Shown here piece after piece: positions 4,559 through 20,096 of a stretch of DNA of 64,000 nt. Position numbers and translations under genes: made by a program. The stretch covers positions 930,001 to 994,000 of the forward strand of contig NZ_CP021138.1 of the NCBI RefSeq assembly GCF_002162035.1. Direction: 5' to 3'. A model generated the notes under the pieces. The model ran no database searches. It saw only the letters and a list, made by a program, of their open reading frames with translations, and had not been told where the DNA came from. The first letter of the stretch is position 1. Every line of letters starts with the position of its first letter. This DNA comes from Sulfuriferula sp. AH1. GTDB taxonomy: Bacteria; Pseudomonadota; Gammaproteobacteria; Burkholderiales; Sulfuriferulaceae.

Positions 4559-6586
4559 TTAAGCTGCGTGTATGCCGGTATTCTGGCGTACATACAATTC
4601 TTCCCACATGGCCTCAGCACGCGGATCGCGATACAGCAAGGAACCCAGTATCACCATCAGGAAACCCAGCGGAATCGAAATAAGACCGGGGTTCTTGAGC
4701 AGGAAGAACGGCTTCTCCAGGCCCATGATGCTGGTAGTCTGGCCGGCATACTGTTTCAAGTCGTCCTGCGCCTTGCTGATGTCTTTCGTCAGCTTGCCGA
4801 TCTCCTTGTTGGTTTTGGCGATCGCGTCAGCATCGGTCAGCGTCGGCAGTTGCGCATTGAGCGCGGCCAGCTTTTCCAGCGCTCCCGGTTTGGCCGGGCT
4901 GGCCGGAGTCGCCGGTTTGGCCGCCTCGGCCTTGGCGCAGACTGCAAACAGTTCGCATATCAAGCCTTCGCCCGGTTTGGCCGCTACAGCAGGTTTGGCT
5001 TCAACGGCAGGTTCGCCTTGCAATACCTTGTTGGCAGCCTTGACGACTTCCTTGGGGTAGGTCATGTTGGGCGAGACCATCACCAGCACGATTGCGGCAA
5101 TCGCGCCTGACAGCATCCCCAGTACTACGCCGCCGGTATTGCAGCGTTTCCAGTACAGCGTAAGGAATACCGCAGGCAGGTTGCTGGAAGCAGCCACCGC
5201 AAAGGCCATGCCGACCAGATGAGCGACGTTCTGCCCTTTGGCCATGATGCCGATGACGATGGCGGCGACGCCAACGATCAGGGTGGAGATGCGAGCTGCC
5301 TTGATCTGCTCTTCCTGAGTAGCATGGTTGCCGCGAATCACACCGACGTAGATGTCATGCGCCATTGCCGAAGCGGATGCCAGCACCAGACCGGCGACAA
5401 CCGCGACGATGGTGGCGAAAGCCACTGCGGCGACGAAGGCGAGGAAGAAGTTGCCCAGGATGGAATGCGCTCCACCGCCCAGATATTGGGCCAGGATAGG
5501 TGCAGCCATGTTGCCGCCCTTGTCGAGCGCGATGATATTGGCCGGGCCGACCAGGGTAGCGGCACCCAGTCCGAGGAACAGGGTGATCACATAAAAGCCG
5601 CCGATGATCGCCATCGCCCACACCACGGATTTACGCGCTTCCTGAGCGTTTGGTACGGTGAAAAAGCGCATCAGGATGTGCGGCAGGCCTGCGGTACCCA
5701 GCACCAGCGCCATGCCCAGCGAGATCTGGTCGATCGGATTTTTCAGGAACAGGCCGGGTTCAAGGAAACGCTGGCCCAATTCTTCCGGGGTCATGCTGGT
5801 TGCTGCATTGCCCAGCAGTTTCGCTACCTGTTTCTGCACGCCTTCGTTATGCACGACGCCGTCGAGGAAACCTGGCAGCGAGAAACCGTAAGGCGCCCAC
5901 ACCAGTACCACCAGTACCAGCGAAGCCACGACCAGCAGTATGGCCTTGACGATCTGCACCCAGGTGGTCGCCACCATGCCGCCGAACACCACGTAGGCCA
6001 GCATCAGTATGCCAACGCCGATCACCGAAATCTCGTAATCGATGCCGATCAGGGTCTTGATCAGCACGCCGCCGCCTACCATCTGCGCGGTCAGGTAAAA
6101 AATCGATACGGTGATGGTGGAGATGGCAGAGATGGCCTTGGTTTTTTTCGGGTCGTTACGGAAAGCCAGGATATCGCCCAGCGTGAATTTGCCGATGTTG
6201 CGACAGGGTTCGGCGATGACCAGCAGCACCGTGATGTACGCCACGAGGAAACCGACCGAGTACATGAAGCCGTCATAGCCATACAGGGAGATCAGGCCTG
6301 CGATACCCAGGAACGAAGCGGCAGACAGATAATCGCCAGCGATCGCCCAGCCGTTCTGCGCCCCGGAAATGCTGCGCCCGGCAGCATAGAATTCGGCGGT
6401 TGTATGTGTCCTTTTTGCGGCCCAGTAGGTGATCGCCATGGTCAGCGCGATGATCGCGCCGAATACAGCCAGGGTGAGGAATTTGTATTCATTGGCGACG
6501 GCGCCTTCGCCTGCCCAGCTCATCGAGCTAAGGCCGGCGAGCAACGGGAATGCCGGCCACGCTCGTTTTGTGTTGGTAATATGCAT
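4559..6586 (-). CDS. Sodium:solute symporter large subunit, VC_2705 type (ActP-like acetate permease)
   Basis: Polytopic inner-membrane protein of about 675 aa with the SSS fold (for example AIAGDYLSAASFLGIAGLI). I place the start at MHITNTKRAW (6586) because GGAG lies nine bases upstream; an in-frame start at 6616 would overlap the small subunit. This subfamily normally follows a DUF4212 subunit, as here. Together with the nearby acsA, acetate or another short carboxylate is the likely substrate; this is inference. Between the last two membrane segments there is an Ala/Pro/Lys-rich stretch and a predicted coiled coil of about 100 residues, with two Cys (ICELFAVCA). Confidence 0.88.
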   Translation of the reverse strand: MHITNTKRAWPAFPLLAGLSSMSWAGEGAVANEYKFLTLAVFGAIIALTMAITYWAAKRTHTTAEFYAAGRSISGAQNGWAIAGDYLSAASFLGIAGLISLYGYDGFMYSVGFLVAYITVLLVIAEPCRNIGKFTLGDILAFRNDPKKTKAISAISTITVSIFYLTAQMVGGGVLIKTLIGIDYEISVIGVGILMLAYVVFGGMVATTWVQIVKAILLVVASLVLVVLVWAPYGFSLPGFLDGVVHNEGVQKQVAKLLGNAATSMTPEELGQRFLEPGLFLKNPIDQISLGMALVLGTAGLPHILMRFFTVPNAQEARKSVVWAMAIIGGFYVITLFLGLGAATLVGPANIIALDKGGNMAAPILAQYLGGGAHSILGNFFLAFVAAVAFATIVAVVAGLVLASASAMAHDIYVGVIRGNHATQEEQIKAARISTLIVGVAAIVIGIMAKGQNVAHLVGMAFAVAASSNLPAVFLTLYWKRCNTGGVVLGMLSGAIAAIVLVMVSPNMTYPKEVVKAANKVLQGEPAVEAKPAVAAKPGEGLICELFAVCAKAEAAKPATPASPAKPGALEKLAALNAQLPTLTDADAIAKTNKEIGKLTKDISKAQDDLKQYAGQTTSIMGLEKPFFLLKNPGLISIPLGFLMVILGSLLYRDPRAEAMWEELYVRQNTGIHAA

Positions 6587-6590
6587 GGTA

Positions 6591-6911
6591 TCAGGCTCCA
6601 ATTTTGTGTGCGTCATTCATGATTTCCTGCGCCATGCTGTCGAATACGGCATTGGCACGGCGTGAATAAATCAGGGCGATGAACCATGCCACGATGAATT
6701 CGGAGAGCGCGAATAGAAGTCCGATATTGACCGGCCCCCATACTTTGATATTGAAAATCTCGGGGAAATACGCGGCGCCAACCGGTAGCAGGAAATAGTA
6801 AATGATCGAAAAAACCATCAATCCCCAAAGAAACATCATTTTTTTGCGATGCAGGGCCTGGAAACGCGGATCTGCATCGATCGCTTGCCAGTTCATGTTG
6901 TGCGTGGTCAT
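6591..6911 (-). CDS. DUF4212 small subunit of sodium:solute symporter
   Basis: The 106-aa protein has two predicted membrane helices (MFLWGLMVFSIIYYFLLPVG and VNIGLLFALSEFIVAWFIAL), and the length and sequence match the DUF4212 family that accompanies VC_2705-type symporters. GGAG precedes its ATG by five bases. Its stop is four bases before the large-subunit start, so the two are translationally close and probably form one transporter. It may stabilise or gate the large subunit; its biochemical role is not established. Confidence 0.9.
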   Translation of the reverse strand: MTTHNMNWQAIDADPRFQALHRKKMMFLWGLMVFSIIYYFLLPVGAAYFPEIFNIKVWGPVNIGLLFALSEFIVAWFIALIYSRRANAVFDSMAQEIMNDAHKIGA

Positions 6912-7014
6912 ATAGGCTCCAATTGGTATGGTTGCATGTTGTTAAGTGCTGGTTTGAATGAAAGCTGAAACGGCTGCATTGGTATCGTTATGGTGAAACG
7001 AACTTGTGGCTGTG

Positions 7015-7032
7015 CTCAAGTTATGTCTTGAG
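7015..7032. promoter_or_regulatory. Inverted repeat between the symporter operon and glnE
   Basis: CTCAAG, six bases, CTTGAG is a perfect dyad in the 184-base divergent region between the symporter operon and glnE. It could be a regulator binding site or a short hairpin in either leader. No regulator can be named from the sequence. Confidence 0.3.
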
Positions 7033-7095
7033 TTTGATTGTTTCAATTAACCCGGTGGAGTCAAGGTGAGTGATTCTAGTGAATAATACGGTTTT

Positions 7096-9798
7096 GTGTC
7101 AAACACGGAAGTGATGCCCATGAGTGCAATGGATTTAGTGACAACGGCCAGTCAACATTCCCGTTACTTGAGTCGGCTGATTGCCGCCGATGACGGCTTT
7201 GGCCCGGCACTGGCAGCGCATCTGGAGGTGCCGTGGGATGCGAGCTCGATGCAGGCGCAACTGGACAGGTTGCAGATCGCCGACGCCGCAGCGTTGCAAG
7301 CCACCTTGCGCAAATTGCGCCAGGCGGTGATGGCGCAGATCATTGTGCGTGATCTGGGCGGTCTGGCGGATTTGTACGAGGTGATGCGCATGTGTACCGA
7401 TCTGGCGCAAGTGGCGGTGCGCTATGCCTTGCGTTACCACACGGCCTGGCTGGCTGAGGACCACGGCATGCCGCTCAATGCAGATGGCACGCCCATGGAG
7501 CTGGCAGTGGTGGGGATGGGCAAGCTCGGCGGCGGCGAGCTGAATGTTTCATCGGATATCGATCTGGTGTATCTGTATGCCGCCGAAGGGGAAACCGCAG
7601 GGAACAAGCCGATTTCCCATCATCAGTTCTTTGTGTCGCTGGCGAAGAAGATAGGGCTGGCGATCTCCGAGATTACCGCTGACGGCTTCGTATTCCGGGT
7701 GGATACGCGCTTGCGGCCGTGGGGCGATTCGGGGCCATTGGCGATGAGTTATACGGCATTCGAGGATTATCTGGTAATCCACGGCCGCGAATGGGAACGT
7801 TATGCCTGGATCAAGGGACGCACGTTGACCGGCAGCCGGCTCGACGAATTGAATGCCATCGTTCGTCCGTTCGTATTCCGCAAATATCTGGATTTCAATG
7901 CGCTGGCCGCGATGCGCGAACTGCACGCGCAGATCCGTCGCGAAGTGATCCGTCGCGATCGCATCGACAATATCAAGCTCGGACCGGGCGGCATCCGTGA
8001 AATCGAATTCATCGCACAGGTGTTCCAGCTGATACGCGGCGGTCAGATACCGGCATTACAGACGCGCGCAACCCTGGCGATACTGCCGATGCTGGCTGCG
8101 CGCGGCTCGCTGCCGGAACAGGCCGTCACCGAATTGCGCGAGGCTTATTGTTTTCTGCGCAATCTGGAACACCGTCTGCAATATCTCGATGACGCACAAA
8201 CCCAGATGTTGCCGACCCGGGAAGAAGACCGCATGCGTATCGCAAAGAGCATGGGTTTTGCAGATTACATCGCGTTTTTACTGGTTTTGAACGAGCACCG
8301 CGCCCATGTCTCCAGGCATTTCGATCAGGTGTTTGCCGCGCCGGCCGATAGTGCCGGTCATCCGTTGAGCGCGCTGTGGCTGGGCGTGATTGACGAGGAA
8401 GAAGCCAGGCTGCAACTGGCAAAATTGGAATTTGACGATCCCGAAGCGGTTTACCAGCGCTTGCGGCAGATACGCCAGAGCAGCCGCTACGTGGGTTTGC
8501 CTGCCAGTAACCGGGTGCGGCTGGATACGCTGGTGCCGCAGCTGATCGAAGTGGCGGCGAGCATGCCGCCGCGCGACAGCACGCTGGCGCGCATCATGGA
8601 TCTGCTGGAAACGGTATCACAGCGGGCATCGTATCTGGCATTGCTGGTGGAGTATCCGGCGGCTTTGCAGCAGCTTGCCAAGATCTGTGCTGCCAGCCCG
8701 TGGGCAGCGCAATACATGACGCGCAACCCGATGCTGTTGGACGAATTGCTGGATACCCGCGTGCTTTATACCCCGCCTGACTGGACGACATTACGGGCTG
8801 AGCTGGCGACGCAAATACAGTCGCTGGAAGGCGATACCGAGCGGCAAATGGATGCCATGCGCCATTTTCGCCAGCGCGTGACCTTTCACCTGCTCGCGCA
8901 GGACCTTGCCGGCATACTGCCGCTGGAAAAACTGTCGGATTATCTGTCCGATCTGGCTGCGCTGATACTGGAAGCGACGCTGCCGCTGGCTTGGGCGGGC
9001 GTGCGCAATCACCATTGCGAAATCCCGCATTTTGCCATTATCGGTTATGGCAAGCTGGGCGGACGCGAGCTGGGCTACGCCTCGGATCTGGATATGGTGT
9101 TCCTGTATCAGGATGATGCGCCCGATGCCGCAGAAAACTATGCACGCCTGGCGCAGCGCATCAATACCTGGTTGTCCAGTACCACCGGGGCGGGCGTGTT
9201 GTACGAGACCGATTTGCGTCTGCGGCCGGATGGCGCATCGGGTTTGCTGGTAAGCAGTATCAAGGCGTTCAGCGACTATCAGCGCCATCACGCCTGGACC
9301 TGGGAGCATCAGGCGCTTACTCGTGCGCGCTTTGTGGCAGGCGATGTGGCGGTGGGTGCGTTATTCGAGCCGATTCGCCGCGATATTCTGACCCAGCCGC
9401 GCGATCTCGCCCAATTGCGTGCAGCTGTGCTGATGATGCGGCAAAAAATGCACGACGGGCATCCGAATCACAGCAAGCTGTTCGATATCAAACACGACGC
9501 CGGCGGCATTATCGACGTGGAATTCATCGTGCAATACCTGATACTCGCATACAGTTCGGCACACAGTGAACTGACTGTGAACGCAGGCAATCTGGCCTTG
9601 CTCACGGTGGCCGCAGAGCTGGGGCTGATTGCAGGCGATTCGGCCGAAGCGGTGCGTGACGCGTATCGTCAATTCCGCCAGTTGCTGCACAGCCTGCGCT
9701 TGCAGGGTGCAGATGCCGCCCGGGTCGATATGGCGACGATAGCGGCGCACGTGGATGCGGTTAAAACGCTGTGGACGCAGGTTTTTGGTTCAAAATAA
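7096..9798 (+). CDS. glnE: Bifunctional glutamine synthetase adenylyltransferase/adenylyl-removing enzyme
   Basis: GlnE adds AMP to, and removes it from, glutamine synthetase in response to the nitrogen state signalled by PII. The 900-aa length is close to the usual 920-950. Two nucleotidyltransferase cores are visible: GMGKLGGGELNVSSDIDLVY near residue 139 (deadenylylation half) and GYGKLGGRELGYASDLDMVF near residue 649 (adenylylation half). Both keep the Asp-x-Asp metal ligands. The frame opens at a GTG (7096); ATGs at 7114 and 7120 are in frame, and the second has GGAA about 12 bases upstream, so the true start may be slightly later. Confidence 0.96.
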   Translation: MSNTEVMPMSAMDLVTTASQHSRYLSRLIAADDGFGPALAAHLEVPWDASSMQAQLDRLQIADAAALQATLRKLRQAVMAQIIVRDLGGLADLYEVMRMCTDLAQVAVRYALRYHTAWLAEDHGMPLNADGTPMELAVVGMGKLGGGELNVSSDIDLVYLYAAEGETAGNKPISHHQFFVSLAKKIGLAISEITADGFVFRVDTRLRPWGDSGPLAMSYTAFEDYLVIHGREWERYAWIKGRTLTGSRLDELNAIVRPFVFRKYLDFNALAAMRELHAQIRREVIRRDRIDNIKLGPGGIREIEFIAQVFQLIRGGQIPALQTRATLAILPMLAARGSLPEQAVTELREAYCFLRNLEHRLQYLDDAQTQMLPTREEDRMRIAKSMGFADYIAFLLVLNEHRAHVSRHFDQVFAAPADSAGHPLSALWLGVIDEEEARLQLAKLEFDDPEAVYQRLRQIRQSSRYVGLPASNRVRLDTLVPQLIEVAASMPPRDSTLARIMDLLETVSQRASYLALLVEYPAALQQLAKICAASPWAAQYMTRNPMLLDELLDTRVLYTPPDWTTLRAELATQIQSLEGDTERQMDAMRHFRQRVTFHLLAQDLAGILPLEKLSDYLSDLAALILEATLPLAWAGVRNHHCEIPHFAIIGYGKLGGRELGYASDLDMVFLYQDDAPDAAENYARLAQRINTWLSSTTGAGVLYETDLRLRPDGASGLLVSSIKAFSDYQRHHAWTWEHQALTRARFVAGDVAVGALFEPIRRDILTQPRDLAQLRAAVLMMRQKMHDGHPNHSKLFDIKHDAGGIIDVEFIVQYLILAYSSAHSELTVNAGNLALLTVAAELGLIAGDSAEAVRDAYRQFRQLLHSLRLQGADAARVDMATIAAHVDAVKTLWTQVFGSK

Positions 9799-11901: not shown

Positions 11902-12666
11902 TCAGACGGTAGATGCAGGATTGAAATAACCGAGTTTTGCCGATAATTGAGCGCCAGCCTGTTGCAGTTCGGTCACCCACTCATCTTTGCGGCGGTCACG
12001 CGGGGCTGAGATGGATAGCCCGGCAACGGCTTTGCCGTTGGCATCGCGGATCAGTACGCCTATGCAGCCTACCCCCAGCTCAGCTTCTTCATCATCAAAC
12101 GCATAAGCTTGGGCTCGCAGCGATTGGGCGGTGGCGCACAGGATTTTGGGGTCGGTAATGGTATTGGGGGTGTAAGCGGGCAGCTGCGTTCTCTGTGCAT
12201 ACTCGAGGCAGGCGCTTGCACTGCTTTCGCCCAGCATCAATTTACCGACAGCGGTGACATGCAGCGGTGCACGGCTGCCGATGATCTGTTCCACTCGCAT
12301 CATGCGGTTGGAGGTCACGCGTTCGATATAAATCACTTCGTCGTTTTCACGCAAGGTCAAATTGACTGTTTCGCCAGTTCGATCACGCAATGCCGTCATG
12401 ATGGGCAGCGCAATCTGGCGCAGGTCGATTTGCTGCTCGACTTGCGCGGCATAGCGCATCAGGCCGCTGCCGAGCTGGTAGGCGCCGTTGCTGTCGCGCG
12501 CCACCCAATCGTGATGTTGCAGCGAGGCCAGGATGCGGAAGGCCGTGGAGCTATGCAGGCCGGTGTCGGCAGCCAGTATTTTGAGGCTGGCATGGCCGTG
12601 CTGGGCCAGGCTTTCCAGCAGCGTGACCATGCGGTCGATGACTTGGATGGAGGATTCTGTATTCAT
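11902..12666 (-). CDS. IclR-family transcriptional regulator
   Basis: From the ATG at 12666 (MNTESSIQVIDRM) the product is 254 aa, the family's usual size. The frame is open further upstream, but the extra 37 residues look unlike protein and would overlap the operator region. An N-terminal winged helix-turn-helix (about residues 10-65) is followed by an IclR effector domain with the VGCIGVLIRD and GLSISAPRDR segments. It is divergent from the phosphoketolase-like/glcDEF operon, and two dyads lie in the shared promoter region. It therefore probably controls that operon in response to a small organic acid such as glyoxylate; the ligand is inferred. Confidence 0.9.
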   Translation of the reverse strand: MNTESSIQVIDRMVTLLESLAQHGHASLKILAADTGLHSSTAFRILASLQHHDWVARDSNGAYQLGSGLMRYAAQVEQQIDLRQIALPIMTALRDRTGETVNLTLRENDEVIYIERVTSNRMMRVEQIIGSRAPLHVTAVGKLMLGESSASACLEYAQRTQLPAYTPNTITDPKILCATAQSLRAQAYAFDDEEAELGVGCIGVLIRDANGKAVAGLSISAPRDRRKDEWVTELQQAGAQLSAKLGYFNPASTV

Positions 12667-12682
12667 GAAATTATCATACATC

Positions 12683-12699
12683 ATTTCACATCGTGAAAT
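12683..12699. promoter_or_regulatory. Candidate IclR operator: perfect 7-bp dyad
   Basis: ATTTCAC-ATC-GTGAAAT is a perfect inverted repeat 17 bases upstream of the IclR start codon and about 95 bases upstream of the divergent operon. Its position and symmetry fit an autoregulatory IclR operator. Confidence 0.55.
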
Positions 12700-12706
12700 C
12701 AATTCT

Positions 12707-12720
12707 GTATTGCGAAATAC
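12707..12720. promoter_or_regulatory. Second dyad in the IclR divergent promoter
   Basis: GTATT-GCGA-AATAC is an inverted repeat centred about 23 bases from the first dyad, roughly two helical turns. Both contain a GCGAAAT or GTGAAAT element, which suggests two binding positions for the same regulator. Confidence 0.4.
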
Positions 12721-12794
12721 CGAGTAATTTGGTAAGGTAATTCCATCGCGCTGCATTTGGGCCGCCATCCATTTCAATTCAGGAGCAATACATC

Positions 12795-14987
12795 ATGAAC
12801 ACACCCGCATTTTGTCAGGGCATCCATCACTACGGCGACAAGTGGCCGGATTTTGACGCCAAGGCAGCTCAGGCGATAATCGCCGAAGGCAAGAGCGCGA
12901 TTGCCGACGCCAACGACGACAAGGCCGCCTACCAGACCTTGCTGGGCGCCGATGCGCTGCGTTATCTGACGCTGCAGGTGACCGGCTCCAAGGGTTCCGG
13001 CCACCCTGGCGGGTTTGCCTCCAGCGCCGAGGCGCACGCTTCCCTGATTATGCTCGGCCACACCAATATCGTCACCGAAGTCGGCCACCATGCGCCGGGT
13101 TTCTATTCCTCCATGTTCCTCGATTCCTCGCTGGAAGAAATGGGCATCCACACCATGGACGACATGATGGCGCGTTTCCGTGAAAAGCACGGCCTGCTGG
13201 GCCACCTGTCCGGCGCCATCCCCGGTCTGCTGGCCCCGGCCGGTCCGCTCGGCCAGGGCCAGCACTTTGCCATGGCCGGCGCGCTGCTGCACCCCGGCAA
13301 GCTGTTCCCGGTCACCATCGGCGACGGCGGCATGGGCGAACCCTACGTGCTCAACAGCATGATGCACTTCAACACCGCTTACCCGAACGTCACCAACTTC
13401 CTGCCGGTGCTGGTATGGAACGGCTACTCGCAGGAACACCACTCCATGGTGTCGCGCATGAGCAACGACGAGATGATCGCCTACTGGAAAGGTCACGGCT
13501 TCAAGAAGGTGGTACTGGTCGATGCCAAGGAGTTCGACGATAGCAACCAGAGTGCCGCCTACGTCGACAGCACGTATTTCTCCCACGGCCAGCGCCTGGC
13601 GTTTGCCAAGGCGGTGCTGCAGGGCACGGACAAGGCAGCCCGTTCCGCATTGGGCGGCACGCTGACGGTGTTCATCATCAAGCAGCTCAAGGGTGCCGGC
13701 GTGCACACGGTGGGTGCCAAGTCGCACAACCTGTATCCCAAGGACACGCTCGACCAGCCGCATATCATCGAAGGCCTGAAGCGCCGCGCGCTGCCGCCAG
13801 AAGCCTGGCAGATCGTGCGCGACAACTTCTCGCGTGCCGGCGGCGGTCCCGCTGTCAAAACCGTGGTAACCGAGACCGAGCTGGCTATCGTACCGATGCC
13901 GAAGCTGGCGATGGACGAATTCAAGCTGGCCGACAAGGCCGTGCCGGCTACTGCCATGGGCGCGCTGGTGGCGCAGATGGGCAAGGCAGATCCGCGTTTC
14001 GTGGTGACCAATGCTGACGGCAACGAAGCCTCGGCGATGAAGAACATCAACGATGCGCTGAAAATCCGCCATCCGACCGCTGACCCGCTGTACAACCAGG
14101 AACCCAACGGTCAGGTCTACGAGCCGCTGAACGAGGACGCCTGCGCCGGTCTGGCAGCCGGTTTGGCGCTGTTCGGCTCGCGTTCGCTGTGGCTGTCGTA
14201 CGAATCGTTCGCCATCAATGGCTGGCCGATCATCCAGACGGTCACTCAGGCCATGGCCGAATTGCGCCGCAAGACGCCGTCGGTCGTGTGCATGTTCACC
14301 GCCGGCGCGCTGGAACAGGGCCGCAACGGCTGGACCCATCAGCGTCCTGAAATCGAGAACTTCTTTGCCGCCATGATGCGTAACGGCAACGTGTTCCCGC
14401 TGTTCCCGTGCGACGCCAACTCGATCCAGACTGCCTATGAATACGCCACCGACAGCATCAACAAGGGCATGGTCATTATCGCCTCCAAGAGTCCGCTGCC
14501 GGTGTACATGAGTCTGGCTGAATCCAGAAAAGCGGTTGAGCAGGGCGCGGCGACGATTTACCAGAGCGCAGGCGGCGACAAGGGCACGGTGGTGTTCGCT
14601 GTTACCGGCGACATGGTGCTGCTGCCGGTGTTTGGCGCCAAGGACAAGCTGGAAGCGGACGGCTACAGTGTACGTATCGTTACCGTGGTGAATCCACGCG
14701 CACTGTACCGCCCGACCGACGTGGCCTGGAATACCGTATCGCAGCCGGATAACGCGTTCATGGACGACGATCATTTCAATGCGCTGTTCGACGGCGAGGC
14801 GCTGATCGCCGTGACCGGCGGCCCGAGCGCACCGCTGGAGCCGGTACTGTTGCGCACGCGTGCGCCGAAACGTGATACCTTCTGCTGGAAACGCGGCGAA
14901 ACCACCGCCTCGGCAGACGAGATCATGGAATTTAACGGCATCACCGCCGACGCCATGTCTGCCCGTGCCAAAACCTTAATGAAATAA
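12795..14987 (+). CDS. Divergent phosphoketolase/transketolase-like TPP enzyme
   Basis: The 730-aa protein belongs to the TPP-dependent transketolase superfamily. SGHPGGF lies near residue 65, PAGPLGQG near 150, and the TPP/Mg motif GDGGMGEP near residue 175 continues to the Asn of VLVWNGYS. The C-terminal half (GWTHQRPEIENF, PCDANSIQTAYEY, VIIASKSPLPVYM) aligns by eye with phosphoketolases. It is shorter than classical phosphoketolase (about 790 aa), and the canonical IHEGGELG histidine region is replaced by LAPAGPLGQG. Some genomes carry such proteins under the name xylulose-5-phosphate 3-epimerase, which is not supported by this fold. AGGAG precedes the ATG. It is first in an operon with a sugar-acid kinase and glycolate oxidase. 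Substrates are unknown. Confidence 0.8.
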   Translation: MNTPAFCQGIHHYGDKWPDFDAKAAQAIIAEGKSAIADANDDKAAYQTLLGADALRYLTLQVTGSKGSGHPGGFASSAEAHASLIMLGHTNIVTEVGHHAPGFYSSMFLDSSLEEMGIHTMDDMMARFREKHGLLGHLSGAIPGLLAPAGPLGQGQHFAMAGALLHPGKLFPVTIGDGGMGEPYVLNSMMHFNTAYPNVTNFLPVLVWNGYSQEHHSMVSRMSNDEMIAYWKGHGFKKVVLVDAKEFDDSNQSAAYVDSTYFSHGQRLAFAKAVLQGTDKAARSALGGTLTVFIIKQLKGAGVHTVGAKSHNLYPKDTLDQPHIIEGLKRRALPPEAWQIVRDNFSRAGGGPAVKTVVTETELAIVPMPKLAMDEFKLADKAVPATAMGALVAQMGKADPRFVVTNADGNEASAMKNINDALKIRHPTADPLYNQEPNGQVYEPLNEDACAGLAAGLALFGSRSLWLSYESFAINGWPIIQTVTQAMAELRRKTPSVVCMFTAGALEQGRNGWTHQRPEIENFFAAMMRNGNVFPLFPCDANSIQTAYEYATDSINKGMVIIASKSPLPVYMSLAESRKAVEQGAATIYQSAGGDKGTVVFAVTGDMVLLPVFGAKDKLEADGYSVRIVTVVNPRALYRPTDVAWNTVSQPDNAFMDDDHFNALFDGEALIAVTGGPSAPLEPVLLRTRAPKRDTFCWKRGETTASADEIMEFNGITADAMSARAKTLMK

Positions 14988-14991
14988 GCAT

Positions 14992-16320
14992 ATGGGCCAG
15001 CAAACCAAAATCATCGTCCTGGATGACGACCCGACCGGGTCGCAGACGGTACACGGCTGCCTGCTGCTGACGCGCTGGGACGTGCCAACCCTGGTCGGTG
15101 CGTTGCAGGACGCATCGCCGCTGTTCTTCGTGCTGACCAACACGCGCGGCATGTCGGCCGAACGGGCCGAAGCGGTTACCCGCGAGGTGTGCGCCAATGT
15201 GCGCATCGCACTGGAACAGGAAGGCACGGCCGGTCGCAGCATCAACCCGATTCTGGTGAGCCGGTCCGACTCGACCCTGCGCGGCCATTACCCGGTGGAG
15301 ACGGATGTCATTGCGGAAGAACTGGGCCCGTTCGACGCGCATTTCCTGGTGCCGGCCTTTTTTGAGGGCGGCCGTGTCACGCGCGGCAGCATCCATTATC
15401 TGATGGTCAACGGCGAACCGGTGCCGGTGCACGAGACCGAGTTCGCTCGCGATTCCGTATTCGGCTACCGCCATAGTCATCTGCCCGATTACGTGGCGGA
15501 CAAGACCCGTGGCCGCATTGCCGCTGAGCAGGTCGAGCGCTTTACTCTGGCTGACGTGCGCGGCGATGTGTCGGCACGTTTGCTGGCGTTGCACGGTAAT
15601 GTCTGCGGCGTAGTGGACGCGGAGCAGCAGTCCGATCTGGACCGCTTTGCCGTGCAGATCCAGACTGCGGCGGCGACCGGCAAGCGCTTCCTATTTCGCA
15701 GCGCGGCCAGCCTGCTGACTTCGCTGGCGCAGCTCGGTCCGCAGCCGGTGGCACCGCAACAGATGGCTGCCTATGTGCGCGGCAGGCGTGCCGGTGCGGT
15801 CATTGTCGGTTCGCACGTGAAGAAAACCACCGCGCAACTGGCCGAGCTGCTCAAGCAGCCGGACGTCATGGGGCTGGAAGTGGATGTCGAACGCATCGGC
15901 TCCGATCGCGCCGCACTGCTGGAAGAAGTCCGCCAGGCCGCCGAGACGGCCCATACACGCGGCGAGACGCCGGTGGTCTATACCAGCCGGATGGAGAAAA
16001 CCTTTGCCGATCAGGCCACCCGTCTGGCCTTCGGTGAGCAGGTGTCGGCGTTTTTGATGGACGTGGTGCGCAACCTGCCGCTGAGCATCGGTTTCCTCAT
16101 CAGCAAGGGCGGCATCACCTCCAACGACGTGCTGAGCGATGGCCTGGCATTGCGTACATCGCGCGTGCTCGGGCAGATTCTGGCCGGCTGTTCGGTGGTG
16201 CGCTGCCCGGCCGATCACCCGCGTTATCCGGATCTGCCGGTGGTGATATTCCCCGGCAACGTCGGCGACGACAACGCGCTGGCCACTGTTTACAATCGTC
16301 TGCGCGGGAACGCTGCCTGA
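14992..16320 (+). CDS. Four-carbon acid sugar kinase (DUF1537 family)
   Basis: The 442-aa protein has the two-domain architecture of DUF1537 kinases. The N-terminal domain shows DDDPTGSQTVHG and SRSDSTLRGHYP; the C-terminal nucleotide-binding domain shows SKGGITSNDVL and FPGNVGDD. Known members phosphorylate D-threonate, D-erythronate or 3-oxotetronate at the 4-hydroxyl, leading to DHAP after oxidation and/or decarboxylation. It begins four bases after the TPP enzyme and its stop overlaps the glcD start by one base, so expression is coupled. No partner dehydrogenase (PdxA2/LtnD) or decarboxylase (OtnC) is adjacent, which makes the substrate unclear. Confidence 0.88.
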   Translation: MGQQTKIIVLDDDPTGSQTVHGCLLLTRWDVPTLVGALQDASPLFFVLTNTRGMSAERAEAVTREVCANVRIALEQEGTAGRSINPILVSRSDSTLRGHYPVETDVIAEELGPFDAHFLVPAFFEGGRVTRGSIHYLMVNGEPVPVHETEFARDSVFGYRHSHLPDYVADKTRGRIAAEQVERFTLADVRGDVSARLLALHGNVCGVVDAEQQSDLDRFAVQIQTAAATGKRFLFRSAASLLTSLAQLGPQPVAPQQMAAYVRGRRAGAVIVGSHVKKTTAQLAELLKQPDVMGLEVDVERIGSDRAALLEEVRQAAETAHTRGETPVVYTSRMEKTFADQATRLAFGEQVSAFLMDVVRNLPLSIGFLISKGGITSNDVLSDGLALRTSRVLGQILAGCSVVRCPADHPRYPDLPVVIFPGNVGDDNALATVYNRLRGNAA

Positions 16321-17813
16321 TGTCGGCACACAGCTGCGAGCACGATCACACGCCAGCGATCGGCAAAGCCGAGCTGGTGGCGCAGCTGTTACAGCTGCTG
16401 CCGGCCGACTGCGTGCTGCACGTGGAAGAAGACCTGCGCCCGTACGAATGCGACGGCTTGTCCGCCTACCGGCAGCTGCCGTGGGTGACCGTGCTGCCGC
16501 AGACGGTGGAACAGGTGCAGGCGGTCATGCGCCTGTGCCATCAATATCAGCTGCCGGTGGTGGCGCGCGGTGCCGGCACCGGGCTGTCCGGCGGGGCGTT
16601 GCCGCACCCTAATGGTGTTTTACTTAGTCTGGCCAAGCTCAAATCGATTCTGTCGCTCGATACCCTGGCGCGCACCGCGCGGGTACAACCGGGCGTGCGC
16701 AACCTGGCGATTTCCCAAGCGGCCGCACCGTTCGGTCTGTATTACGCGCCGGACCCGTCGTCGCAGATCGCCTGCACCATCGGCGGCAATGTCGCGGAGA
16801 ACTCCGGCGGCGTGCACTGCCTGAAATACGGCCTGACCGTGCACAACATCCTGCAGATCAAACTGGTGACGGTGGAGGGCGAGCTGCTGGTCATCGGCAG
16901 CGAGGCGCTTGACAGCGCCGGTTACGACCTGCTGGCGCTGCTGACCGGTTCGGAAGGCATGCTCGGCGTGATCGTGGAAGTCATCGTGCGCTTGCTGCCG
17001 GTACCGGAAAAGGCGCAGGTGATGCTGGCGGCGTTCGACGACGTGGAAAAGGCCGGTGCTGCGGTGGGCGCCATCATTGCCGCCGGAGTTATTCCTGCCG
17101 GGCTGGAGATGATGGACAAGCTGTCCATCAGCGCGGCGGAAGATTTCGCCCATGCCGGCTACCCGCGTGACGCCGAAGCCATACTGCTGTGCGAGCTGGA
17201 CGGCACGCGCGAGGAAGTGGCCGAACAGGTGGCGCAGGTGCAGAGCATTTTGAATAATATCGGCGCCACCGAGGTAAGGCTGGCGCGCGACGAGCAGGAA
17301 CACGCCCTGTTGTGGAAGGGGCGCAAGTCCGCTTTCCCTGCGGTCGGCCGCCTGTCGCCCGACTACTATTGCATGGACGGGACCATCCCGCGCCGCCACT
17401 TGCCCCTGGTGCTGCGCCGCATCGGCGAGCTGTCGCAACAATATGGCCTGGTGGTGGCGAACGTGTTTCATGCCGGTGACGGCAACCTGCATCCGCTGAT
17501 TCTGTACGATGCCAACAAGCCCGGTGAACTGGCGCAGGTTGAGGAATTCGGGGGCAAGATTCTCGAGCTCTGCGTCGAAGTCGGCGGCAGCATCACCGGC
17601 GAGCATGGCGTGGGTATGGAAAAGATCAATCAGATGTGCGTGCAGTACGACAGCGCCGAGCTGACGCAATTTCACGCCATCAAGCATGTGTTCGACCCGC
17701 TTGAGCTGCTCAATCCGGGCAAGGCTGTGCCGACCCTGCACCGCTGCGCCGAATTCGGCGCCATGCACGTGCACGGCGGCCAGCTGCCTTTCCCCGAACT
17801 GGAGCGTTTCTGA
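16320..17813 (+). CDS. glcD: Glycolate oxidase, FAD-binding subunit GlcD
   Basis: The 497-aa FAD-linked oxidase (E. coli GlcD is 499 aa) has the PCMH FAD-binding signature VVARGAGTGLSGGALP near residue 80 and the C-terminal VANVFHAGDGNLHP and GSITGEHGVGMEK motifs. With GlcE and GlcF it oxidises glycolate (and often D-lactate) to the 2-oxo acid at the membrane, passing electrons to quinone. Start and stop overlap the neighbours as TGATG, so translation is coupled along the operon. Confidence 0.95.
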   Translation: MSAHSCEHDHTPAIGKAELVAQLLQLLPADCVLHVEEDLRPYECDGLSAYRQLPWVTVLPQTVEQVQAVMRLCHQYQLPVVARGAGTGLSGGALPHPNGVLLSLAKLKSILSLDTLARTARVQPGVRNLAISQAAAPFGLYYAPDPSSQIACTIGGNVAENSGGVHCLKYGLTVHNILQIKLVTVEGELLVIGSEALDSAGYDLLALLTGSEGMLGVIVEVIVRLLPVPEKAQVMLAAFDDVEKAGAAVGAIIAAGVIPAGLEMMDKLSISAAEDFAHAGYPRDAEAILLCELDGTREEVAEQVAQVQSILNNIGATEVRLARDEQEHALLWKGRKSAFPAVGRLSPDYYCMDGTIPRRHLPLVLRRIGELSQQYGLVVANVFHAGDGNLHPLILYDANKPGELAQVEEFGGKILELCVEVGGSITGEHGVGMEKINQMCVQYDSAELTQFHAIKHVFDPLELLNPGKAVPTLHRCAEFGAMHVHGGQLPFPELERF

Positions 17814-18877
17814 TGCCGCCAGCCGATCTTACCGCTACGCTGAAGCAGCAGGTGCAGGCTGCCTATGCCTGCACCACGCCGCTGCAGATTGTCGGCGGCA
17901 ACAGCAAGGCCTTTTACGGCCGGACGACACGCGGCACCGTGCTCGACGTGTCCGGCCACGGCGGCATCATCAGCTACGAACCGACTGAATTGGTAATAAC
18001 CGCCCGCGCCGGCACGCCGCTGGATGACATCGAAGCGGCGCTGGCCGAGCAGGGCCAGATGCTGCCGTTCGAACCGCCACACTGGGGACCGGCGGCTACG
18101 CTGGGTGGCACCGTGGCCTGCAACCTGTCCGGCCCGCGCCGTCCCTATGCGGGTTCCGCGCGCGATTTCGTGCTGGGCTGCCACATGCTCAACGGCAAGG
18201 GCGAGCTGCTGCATTTCGGCGGCGAAGTGATGAAAAACGTCGCCGGTTATGATGCCGCCCGGTTGATGGCCGGGGCGCTGGGCACGCTCGGCGTGCTGCT
18301 GGATATCAGTCTGAAAGTATTGCCCGCGCCGCAGCAGGAGCTAACCCTAGTGCAGCCGTGCACGCTGGCCGAGGCGCTCATGCGCATGAATCGGCTGGCC
18401 GGCCAGCCGATACCGCTGTCCGCGTCTGCCTGGATCGACGGCCAGCTGTATCTGCGTTTTTCCGGCGCAGCCACTGCCGTTGCCGCGGTCAAGGCACGCG
18501 AGCCGAGCGAGGTGCTGGCGGATGCGGCAAACTTCTGGCGCGGTTTACGCGAGTTGCATACGCCATTTTTCGTCGATGCCGGCAAACTGTGGCGTATTGC
18601 GCTGCCACCAACAGCCGCGCAGCCCGACTTGCCGGGAGACTGGCTGGTCGAGTGGGGCGGGGCGCAGCGCTGGCTCAAGAGCAACGCAGACGTCGAGCAG
18701 GTGCGCGCCCGCGTGCTCGCATCAGGCGGACACGCCACGCTGGTGCATGGTGCCAGCGCCAGCAAAGCGGTGTTCCAGCCGCTGCCGCCCGTGCTGTGGC
18801 AATTGCATCAACGTTTAAAACAGGCATTCGACCCGGCAGGCATCCTCAACCCCGGTCGCATGTACGAAGGATTGTGA
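17813..18877 (+). CDS. glcE: Glycolate oxidase subunit GlcE
   Basis: The 354-aa FAD-binding protein is a shorter relative of GlcD, as expected for GlcE (about 350 aa). Visible features are PLQIVGGNSKAFYGR, LPFEPPHWGPAATLGGTVACNLSGP and the C-terminal AFDPAGILNPGRMY. It starts in a one-base overlap with glcD and ends one base before glcF. Its flavin role in the complex is less defined than that of GlcD. Confidence 0.94.
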   Translation: MPPADLTATLKQQVQAAYACTTPLQIVGGNSKAFYGRTTRGTVLDVSGHGGIISYEPTELVITARAGTPLDDIEAALAEQGQMLPFEPPHWGPAATLGGTVACNLSGPRRPYAGSARDFVLGCHMLNGKGELLHFGGEVMKNVAGYDAARLMAGALGTLGVLLDISLKVLPAPQQELTLVQPCTLAEALMRMNRLAGQPIPLSASAWIDGQLYLRFSGAATAVAAVKAREPSEVLADAANFWRGLRELHTPFFVDAGKLWRIALPPTAAQPDLPGDWLVEWGGAQRWLKSNADVEQVRARVLASGGHATLVHGASASKAVFQPLPPVLWQLHQRLKQAFDPAGILNPGRMYEGL

Positions 18878-18878
18878 A

Positions 18879-20096
18879 ATGCAGACATCATTGAGCGATG
18901 CATTCAAGAACACTGCCGCCGGCCAGGAAGCCGATGCCATCCTGCGTTCCTGCGTGCATTGCGGCTTCTGTACCGCGACCTGCCCGACCTATCAGATCAA
19001 GGGTGACGAGCTGGATGGCCCGCGCGGGCGCATATACCTGATCAAGCAGGTGCTGGAAGGCCAGCCCGCCACGGCAAAAACCCAGACCCATCTGGATCGC
19101 TGCCTGACCTGCCGTTCGTGCGAATCGACCTGCCCGTCCGGCGTGCAGTACGGCCATCTGGTCGATATCGGCCGCGCGGTGGTGGAGCAGCAGGTGGGAC
19201 GAAGCTGGCGCGAAAAGCTGCTGCGCCGCACTTTGCGGGCAGTGATTTCGCATCGGCATCGCTTTGCAGCGCTGCTCAAACTGGGGCGATTGTTTCGTCC
19301 GCTGCTGCCTGCTGCATTGCAACACCACATTCCGCAAGCGCAATCTGCCGGGGCTTGGCCAGCTGCACGTCATGCGCGGAAAATGCTGGTGTTGCAAGGC
19401 TGTGCGCAGCCTGCTACTACGCCGCTCACCAATGCCAGCGCTGCGCGGGTGCTGGACAAGCTGGGCGTGAGCTTGCTGGAAATAAGCAGCGCCGGCTGCT
19501 GCGGCGCGTTGAGTCATCATTTGAATGCACAGCAGGAAGCGCAGGATTTTGCGCGGCGCAATATCGATGCCTGGTGGCCGCATATCATGGCGGGAGCAGA
19601 AGCCATCGTCATGACTGCCAGCGGTTGTGGCGTGATGGTCAAGGATTACGCCCACTTGTTGCGTCATGCCCCGGATTATGCAGACAAGGCGCAGCAGGTG
19701 TCGGCAATGACGCGTGACCTGATCGAAGTCCTGTTGCGGGAGGATCTGTCTGTATTGCCATTGCAGCCGTCAGGCGCAGTGGCAGTCCATGCTCCGTGTA
19801 CGCTGCAACATGGACAGAAATTAAGCGGCACCCTGGAGCAGCTGTTACGCCGTGCCGGATTTGAGCTAACTGCTGTTCCCGATGCGCATCTTTGCTGTGG
19901 TTCAGCCGGCACCTATTCCATCTTGCAGCCTGATTTGTCCCAGCAGCTGCTGCAGCAAAAACTGACTGCGCTGACCAGCGGCAAACCAACACAGATAGTC
20001 ACCGCAAATGTGGGCTGTCAGTTGCATCTGGCGAGCAAGTCACCGCTGCCTGTGCGTCACTGGATCGAGTTGTTCGATAGGCCTGCTCATTTGTAG
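18879..20096 (+). CDS. glcF: Glycolate oxidase iron-sulfur subunit GlcF
   Basis: The 405-aa protein carries two [4Fe-4S] motifs (CVHCGFCTATCP at residues 24-35 and CLTCRSCESTCP near residue 74) and two cysteine-rich CCG domains (SAGCCGALSHH and HLCCGSAGTYS), the usual heterodisulfide-reductase-like arrangement of GlcF. It carries electrons from the flavin subunits to the quinone pool. It is the last gene of the operon. No malate synthase or glyoxylate carboligase gene follows, so the fate of glyoxylate is not explained by the classical glc operon. Confidence 0.95.
   Translation: MQTSLSDAFKNTAAGQEADAILRSCVHCGFCTATCPTYQIKGDELDGPRGRIYLIKQVLEGQPATAKTQTHLDRCLTCRSCESTCPSGVQYGHLVDIGRAVVEQQVGRSWREKLLRRTLRAVISHRHRFAALLKLGRLFRPLLPAALQHHIPQAQSAGAWPAARHARKMLVLQGCAQPATTPLTNASAARVLDKLGVSLLEISSAGCCGALSHHLNAQQEAQDFARRNIDAWWPHIMAGAEAIVMTASGCGVMVKDYAHLLRHAPDYADKAQQVSAMTRDLIEVLLREDLSVLPLQPSGAVAVHAPCTLQHGQKLSGTLEQLLRRAGFELTAVPDAHLCCGSAGTYSILQPDLSQQLLQQKLTALTSGKPTQIVTANVGCQLHLASKSPLPVRHWIELFDRPAHL

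Follow-up and report, generated by a model that had tools for sequence, protein, structure and literature searches.

We analysed a 64-kb stretch of the Sulfuriferula sp. AH1 genome (the window; contig NZ_CP021138.1, positions 930,001 to 994,000) in which a divergent IclR-family gene faces genes for a thiamine pyrophosphate (TPP)-dependent enzyme, a DUF1537 kinase and the glycolate dehydrogenase subunits GlcD, GlcE and GlcF. This cluster probably recycles glycolate by an undescribed enzyme route. To the more specific proposal that the operon is an IclR-controlled phosphoglycolate salvage unit of Calvin-cycle bacteria, operating via 3-oxotetronate to dihydroxyacetone phosphate (DHAP), we give a probability of about one half. 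A reading of the same DNA from its letters alone (the sequence-only reading) had put forward this pathway, which we find to be the best fit of several readings.

RuBisCO oxygenation produces 2-phosphoglycolate, which a phosphatase converts to glycolate. By family membership, GlcDEF would oxidise glycolate to glyoxylate. The TPP enzyme may then move a C2 ketol unit from xylulose 5-phosphate (Xu5P), fructose 6-phosphate or sedoheptulose 7-phosphate to glyoxylate, releasing an aldose phosphate and giving 3-oxotetronate; chemically, a C2 unit plus glyoxylate would make HOCH2-CO-CHOH-COOH, a C4 3-oxo acid. The DUF1537 kinase would convert 3-oxotetronate to its 4-phosphate, a beta-keto acid predicted to lose CO2 and yield DHAP. 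A class II aldolase-like enzyme could catalyse this decarboxylation where one is encoded; otherwise an enzyme encoded elsewhere might do so, or the step may be spontaneous. The net reaction would be glyoxylate + Xu5P + ATP -> glyceraldehyde 3-phosphate + DHAP + CO2 + ADP. Such a route would join a new head, which makes the substrate from glyoxylate, to the kinase and the DHAP-forming decarboxylation that end a threonate pathway. It would explain the constant pairing of the TPP and kinase genes, as well as their company of glycolate oxidation, RuBisCO and sometimes malate synthase or a DHAP-type class II aldolase.

We identified a TPP relative (61-81% identity) in 21 of 274 genomes sampled from the class, including the window's own 2.9-Mb genome. 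RuBisCO (E<1e-100) is encoded by 20 of these 21 TPP-positive genomes, compared with 108 of the 253 TPP-negative ones (Fisher p 2e-6), and the single TPP-positive genome without a match (G033) is 86% complete. In this test, 14 genomes whose RuBisCO-family matches fell short of 1e-100 were counted as negative. When all 142 genomes with a family match are counted as positive, the comparison becomes 20 of 21 versus 122 of 253 (p 1.4e-5); because the genomes are related, both p values overstate independence, which weakens the association to that extent. The window's genome contains three PF00016 matches and thus encodes RuBisCO. The co-occurrence with RuBisCO that the sequence-only reading had proposed as a check is therefore found for the TPP gene.

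A second association is with glycolate oxidation. GlcE (507.5 bits, cut-off 284) and GlcF (656.9 bits, cut-off 333) are over their NCBIfam cut-offs, and GlcD is narrowly under two of them (857.5 bits against 897 and 551 against 567.9). Identities to the E. coli proteins are 69% for GlcD, 52% for GlcE and 57% for GlcF, and no full-length GlcE match besides the operon's own occurs in the window's genome. GlcE is present in 20 of the 21 TPP-positive genomes (the exception, G208, is 87% complete), as expected from the earlier suggestion of a glycolate-oxidation operon. It lies within ~8 kb of the TPP gene in 10 of them and far away or on another contig in 10, a placement that is uncertain in fragmented assemblies. 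When only RuBisCO genomes are compared, GlcE is found in 19 of 20 with the TPP gene and in 65 of 101 tested without it (p 0.007); the search used the window protein without a cut-off in TPP-positive genomes and NF008439 with its cut-off in the others.

Neither malate synthase nor glyoxylate carboligase (Gcl) is encoded in the window operon, as the sequence-only reading had stated, and whole-genome searches agree. Malate synthase (PF01274) has no match in the window's genome, and the best Gcl score there is 335.4 bits against a TIGR01504 cut-off of 711.2. Gcl over the cut-off occurs in none of the 21 TPP-positive genomes and in 4 of the 274 genomes overall, too rarely for its distribution to be informative either way.

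In the open-frame listing of the window, the operon genes are tightly packed (Table 1). A gap of 4 bases separates the TPP and DUF1537 genes, 1-base overlaps join DUF1537 to GlcD and GlcD to GlcE, and GlcE and GlcF are 1 base apart. Open frames, junctions and family searches thus confirm the gene order, close coupling and IclR gene described before. The arrangement is more than chance, because the same order recurs in distant named genomes.

Table 1. Features of the glycolate operon and its upstream region, in window coordinates.
Feature	Position	Strand	Basis and remarks
IclR-family regulator, divergent	11902..12666	-	Pfam/NCBIfam family; Limit at 12666 (gene start) approximate, start codon chosen, frame open to 12777
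Operator-like palindrome TTTCACATCGTGAAA, consensus TTTCAYANTRTGAAA	12684..12698	none	Palindrome search
TPP-dependent ketolase-like enzyme, 730 amino acids, its own family between transketolase and phosphoketolase	12795..14987	+	Pfam, alignment
DUF1537 acid-sugar kinase (SBD_N + NBD_C)	14992..16320	+	Pfam
GlcD, glycolate dehydrogenase FAD subunit	16320..17813	+	NCBIfam score, E. coli comparison
GlcE, glycolate dehydrogenase FAD-binding subunit	17813..18877	+	Over NCBIfam cut-off
GlcF, glycolate dehydrogenase Fe-S subunit	18879..20096	+	Over NCBIfam cut-off

To follow the module across named genomes, we compared the loci of the best 80 of 550 TPP relatives, many of which are metagenome-assembled genomes. 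The kinase gene follows the TPP gene in 78 of the 80 loci; the two exceptions have a contig that stops at the TPP gene or no more than 50 bases from it. Named carriers include Sulfuriferula, Gallionella, Sideroxydans, Nitrotoga, Thiobacillus, Thiogranum, Halothiobacillus, Acidithiobacillus (L111) and Mariprofundus. A wider phylum sample contained TPP relatives in 3 of 398 genomes. The window TPP gene is 95% identical to that of L032 and groups with Sulfuriferula in a tree. The Mariprofundus TPP gene also groups with Sulfuriferula (Shimodaira-Hasegawa-like approximate likelihood ratio test 99, by a quick tree method), and all six genes recur in the Mariprofundus operon in the window's order, so the module looks to have moved as an intact unit between classes. 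Pairwise identities of other module proteins correlate with those of the TPP enzyme (DUF1537 r 0.72 over 73 loci, IclR 0.62, GlcF 0.62, GlcD 0.47). We set aside an argument for co-inheritance from these values, because shared ancestry alone can yield them. Two loci are unusual: Nitrotoga M5 (L099, 11257-14354) has two DUF1537 genes in tandem after the TPP gene, and a contig titled Campylobacterota (L096) carries a module whose TPP gene clusters in the tree with that of a gammaproteobacterium (L079), which may reflect a binning error or transfer.

Loci of the module also share a regulator and an operator-like sequence. IclR is found in 74 of the 80 loci. The contig before the TPP gene is shorter than 210 bases in four of the six loci without it, and measures 737 bases in L096 and 1288 in L106. 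In L092, IclR and the TPP gene are separated by transporter genes. A TTTCAYANTRTGAAA-like palindrome (up to two mismatches) occurs once in the window, at 12684, one base from the start of the quoted sequence at 12683. The same search finds it near the TPP start in 73 of the 76 loci with enough upstream sequence. Of the exceptions, L034 has a perfect copy just outside the examined stretch, and L096 and L103 have no palindrome there. Elsewhere, 15 matches occur in 1.14 Mb, two of them perfect (L034 and L072), versus 9 in a shuffle. Of 69 upstream stretches, one from the window and 68 from the loci, 49 contain the 8-mer TTGTGAAA, compared with 6 for the commonest 8-mer of shuffled stretches. In L072, a gene for a tripartite ATP-independent periplasmic (TRAP) transporter is preceded by two further copies of the palindrome, a perfect one at 8852 and a weaker one at 9038.

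Glyoxylate was considered as the effector of this regulator and is not established as such. Equivalents of E. coli IclR D212, C222, S239 and S241, presumably ketoacid-pocket residues, are kept in 69 of 69 loci. These residues are not diagnostic for glyoxylate, because E. coli KdgR has the same D, C, S and S and the Gly-Ala pair of IclR and AllR is replaced in the module IclR.

Neighbouring genes point to glyoxylate as the metabolite. We searched the 80 loci and five further stretches (L131-L135), 85 loci in all, with E. coli proteins. When L133 is added to the 80, a malate synthase adjoins the module in 6 of these 81 loci. It is of the GlcB type in L046, L052, L054, L056 and L058. In L133 (genome G241, 6013-7608), it is of the AceB type (58% identical to E. 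coli), and its gene lies on the kinase's strand, beginning 173 bases beyond the kinase gene. None of the 85 loci has a match to isocitrate lyase, Gcl, Hyi or GlcA. A malate synthase that adjoins the module without isocitrate lyase is difficult to explain except by glyoxylate disposal, which makes glyoxylate very likely the module's metabolite.

Other neighbours vary. GlcG matches (45-57% identity) occur in 10 loci and LutA-like genes, labelled by eye with scores under the cut-off, in 11. Among 44 loci with at least 5 kb after the kinase, two or more Glc genes lie downstream in 25 and anywhere in the locus in 27. The remaining 17 have a Liv-type ATP-binding cassette transporter downstream (8 loci), a TRAP transporter (2 loci) or no labelled gene (7 loci). 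In a Sideroxydans contig (L059), the kinase is followed by a major facilitator superfamily gene (6308-7501) that passes the TIGR04259 cut-off for oxalate/formate antiporters.

Judged by profile scores and identities, the TPP enzyme is a distinct family, separate from transketolase and phosphoketolase. It is over the Pfam cut-off for Transket_pyr and, weakly, over those for XFP_N (44.7 bits, cut-off 23.7) and XFP (48.2 bits, cut-off 22). It falls short of the NCBIfam phosphoketolase cut-offs (best 112.9 versus 777 bits) and misses the transketolase ones by far. Its closest profile and PDB sequence relatives are phosphoketolases, and it is 26% identical to TktA and 23% identical to a separate phosphoketolase also encoded in the window's genome. 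Among the matches listed, the next relatives outside the family are at ~31% identity or less, with none between ~31% and 61%. We also identified 42 matching plasmid records, all below 60% identity; the 15 listed among them are at 22-30%. In alignment, the transketolase catalytic His and Glu are retained. Equivalents of TktA H26, H66, H100, H261, E411 and H473, which we take to have catalytic or ketose-handling roles, are kept in 17 of 17 aligned family sequences, and N511 and K565 match phosphoketolase XFP.

The kinase belongs to DUF1537 in general, with Pfam scores of 190.4 bits for SBD_N (cut-off 25) and 136.7 bits for NBD_C (cut-off 28.3). In alignment it is 24% identical to E. coli YgbK, and BLAST against E. 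coli OtnK gave no match at 1e-3. A profile scan of 16 sequences (15 module kinases and E. coli YgbK) matched the 3-oxo-isoapionate kinase profile in 7, the window kinase not among them. A PDB search with the window kinase alone gave no match at E<=1, and one with a kinase alignment (A2) was rejected as biased because that alignment contains YgbK.

Relatives of the kinase were found in 9 plasmid records, 7 regions of which were inspected, and the window kinase is nearer to those of Deinococcus, Rhodococcus and Arthrobacter than to E. coli OtnK. An aldolase neighbour is present in these three regions: a gene annotated as class II aldolase adjoins the kinase relative in Deinococcus (42% identity) and Rhodococcus (38%), and LtnD-like and aldolase frames lie near that of Arthrobacter StoSoilB13 (34%). 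A garR-like neighbour occurs in three other regions, annotated in Ligilactobacillus and Priestia and a 61% similar frame in Niallia; pdxA lies beside the relative in one (Rhizobium). In a three-step bacterial threonate route, LtnD, a DUF1537 kinase and an F_bP_aldolase-type decarboxylase give DHAP (Arthrobacter; Guo et al. 2024, according to excerpts of PMC12540250). By analogy, the context of the relatives supports phosphorylation followed by decarboxylation to DHAP.

Class II aldolases also occur at the module itself: five of the 80 loci (L041, L046, L049, L052 and L104) have one after the kinase. Of the motifs HLDH, GTAHG, HGATG and N-x-D-T, which we take to be functional in class II aldolases, they keep the first three, and the usual N-x-D-T motif reads KIN[YF]FSGL. 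Weak OtnC matches (24-37%) occur in 18 of 23 TPP-positive genomes. A class II aldolase-Dabb fusion, encoded in the window's genome outside the window (L129, 7315-8490), follows RuBisCO genes and CbbQ/CbbO-like frames labelled by eye, and a fusion of this kind adjoins IclR in L042 and G239. Of 80 genomes searched, 27 have relatives at 44% identity or above, in several cases close to RuBisCO matches. They occur in 6 of 21 TPP-positive genomes versus 21 of 59 TPP-negative ones (three of these last 21 partial; shorter pieces of G159 and G121 uncounted). We rejected the fusion as a specific decarboxylase acting in trans, because it tracks RuBisCO rather than the TPP gene. Near the other RuBisCO cluster of the window's genome, an aldolase-like frame (L130, 17596-18918) has IEVED in place of HLDH and, lacking that motif, is probably not an active aldolase.

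Several observations weigh against the proposed 3-oxotetronate route. Its weakest points are the decarboxylase, which the window operon does not encode, and the recurrence of GarR, which keeps a glycerate-type route alive: a GarR/GlxR-like reductase, superfluous for the proposed route, is present in 8 of the 80 loci. OtnC has no match in the window's genome at E<=0.001. The aldolases of the five loci are ~37-40% identical to the Rhodococcus and Deinococcus ones, no closer than class II aldolases generally, and the Rhodococcus plasmid aldolase retains the usual KVNVNTEL motif. The sequence-only reading had drawn on kinases of the OtnK type. By profile, the window kinase lies outside the curated OtnK family NF043035 (cut-off 350), whose single match among the 16 scanned sequences at E<=0.1 (1.6e-163) must be YgbK, and its DtnK score (NF047819) is 72.8 bits, far below the cut-off of 450. 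Excerpts of PMC12540250 assign 2-oxotetronate to the aldolase-paired kinase of the three-step threonate route; this and a 3-oxotetronate assignment need not exclude each other, because the two acids would share an enediol.

The distribution of glyoxylate sinks also counts against it. Some carriers have a second sink in the malate synthase beside the module. We had expected malate synthase and the TPP gene to be complementary, an idea that we rejected: malate synthase is present in 4 of the 21 TPP-positive genomes and, among RuBisCO genomes, in 4 of 20 with the TPP gene versus 21 of 108 without. GlcE is encoded in 47 of 80 tested RuBisCO genomes that lack the TPP gene, malate synthase and Gcl (a set drawn from 87, with 7 of lower completeness left out). 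Other sinks therefore exist, and the module would be one solution among several. The earlier interpretation thus stands for the links to RuBisCO and glycolate oxidation, for glyoxylate and for the lack of known sinks in the window's genome; its kinase falls outside the curated OtnK family, and malate synthase is no rarer in carriers. Four lines of evidence make the case stronger than that reading could: the association with RuBisCO, malate synthase genes beside the module, an operator common to the loci and the kinase/aldolase route already published.

Other readings would explain parts of this evidence. The reductases would find a use if the TPP enzyme joined two glyoxylates to tartronate semialdehyde and CO2, a GarR-like reductase made glycerate and DUF1537 acted as glycerate kinase. 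We consider this unlikely. Both GarR-like reductases scanned (L071 and L046) are over the TIGR01505 cut-off, kinase relatives lie beside garR-like genes in 3 of 7 plasmid regions, and neither Gcl over the cut-off in the TPP-positive genomes nor a Gcl or Hyi match at the loci is found. However, the TPP enzyme belongs with transketolase and XFP, including their ketose-handling residues, and not with Gcl. GarR-superfamily dehydrogenases also head tetronate pathways (LtnD), and the aldolase of five loci would have no role. DUF1537 kinases as described in the source excerpts use C4 acids or 4-hydroxythreonine, not glycerate.

The TPP enzyme could instead be an ordinary phosphoketolase or transketolase that makes acetyl phosphate or rebalances Calvin-cycle sugars. 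Its phosphoketolase relatives and XFP-like N511 and K565 are consistent with this, and acetyl phosphate could feed malate synthase, an enzyme that requires acetyl-CoA, where it is present (6 loci). This too seems improbable, given the missed NCBIfam cut-offs, the low identities to TktA and to the genome's own phosphoketolase and the gap in the listed matches below the 61-81% family. It also leaves the DUF1537 pairing in 78 of 80 loci unexplained, and malate synthase is not found in the window's genome. Catabolism or damage repair of tetronates would use every operon gene: GlcDEF would oxidise erythronate or threonate to 2-oxotetronate, the kinase would make 2-oxo-4-phosphotetronate and the TPP enzyme would decarboxylate it to a triose phosphate. 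Transporters join some loci, and the branch to which the kinase belongs is similar to the kinases in the three-step threonate route, as that route appears in the excerpts. We regard this reading as very unlikely. It predicts neither the RuBisCO link nor the malate synthase beside the module, and the latter lowered its odds. GlcE and GlcF are moreover over glycolate dehydrogenase cut-offs, GlcD is close to its E. coli counterpart, and the operon holds the genome's sole full GlcE match.

The proposed phosphoglycolate salvage route shares parts with several known systems. Like the three-step L-threonate pathway (LtnD, 2-OtnK and F_bP_aldolase-type 2-OtnC, in excerpts of PMC12540250) and Arabidopsis LTD, the module has a DUF1537 kinase and a proposed DHAP product, and five loci add a class II aldolase; the StoSoilB13 kinase probably belongs to that pathway, judging by its gene set and genus. 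Unlike that pathway, the module has a TPP enzyme in place of the dehydrogenase head, GlcDEF and a RuBisCO association. No aldolase is encoded in the window operon, and 2-oxotetronate is the substrate assigned to the known kinase. The four-step LtnD-OtnI-OtnK-OtnC pathway (E. coli ygbJKLM) has 3-oxotetronate and its 4-phosphate as intermediates, as the proposed route would, but differs in its distant kinase and in an OtnC that the window's genome does not match. The glycerate pathway and malate cycle of Cupriavidus (excerpts of PMC7486775) likewise start with GlcDEF and serve RuBisCO organisms, and malate synthase adjoins the module in some relatives, whereas the window's genome has neither Gcl over the cut-off nor malate synthase. 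The TPP enzyme shares Pfam family and catalytic residues with phosphoketolase XFP and transketolase but is a separate 730-amino-acid family placed in a glycolate operon.

The excerpts of PMC7486775 name four phosphoglycolate salvage routes and report that 63% of 1,890 non-cyanobacterial RuBisCO genomes encode malate synthase, compared with 0 of 9 Acidithiobacillales. No earlier description of the module was found among the best-ranked papers of the literature searched, whose coverage excluded bioRxiv and most subscription journals. We tentatively suggest, at slightly less than even odds, a natural salvage route beyond those four, present in many CO2-fixing lineages of Proteobacteria. In it, a transketolase-like carboligase would take glyoxylate as ketol acceptor, and a pentose phosphate and glyoxylate would become two triose phosphates and CO2 at the cost of one ATP and no reductant. 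The module could explain how some CO2-fixing bacteria, including iron or sulfur oxidisers, manage without known recycling enzymes, and its presence in loci of Acidithiobacillus, Gallionella, Sideroxydans, Nitrotoga, Thiobacillus and Mariprofundus bears on phosphoglycolate disposal in chemolithoautotrophs. If the route is correct, the carboligase would offer synthetic photorespiration bypasses a new component that requires neither reductant nor amino donor.

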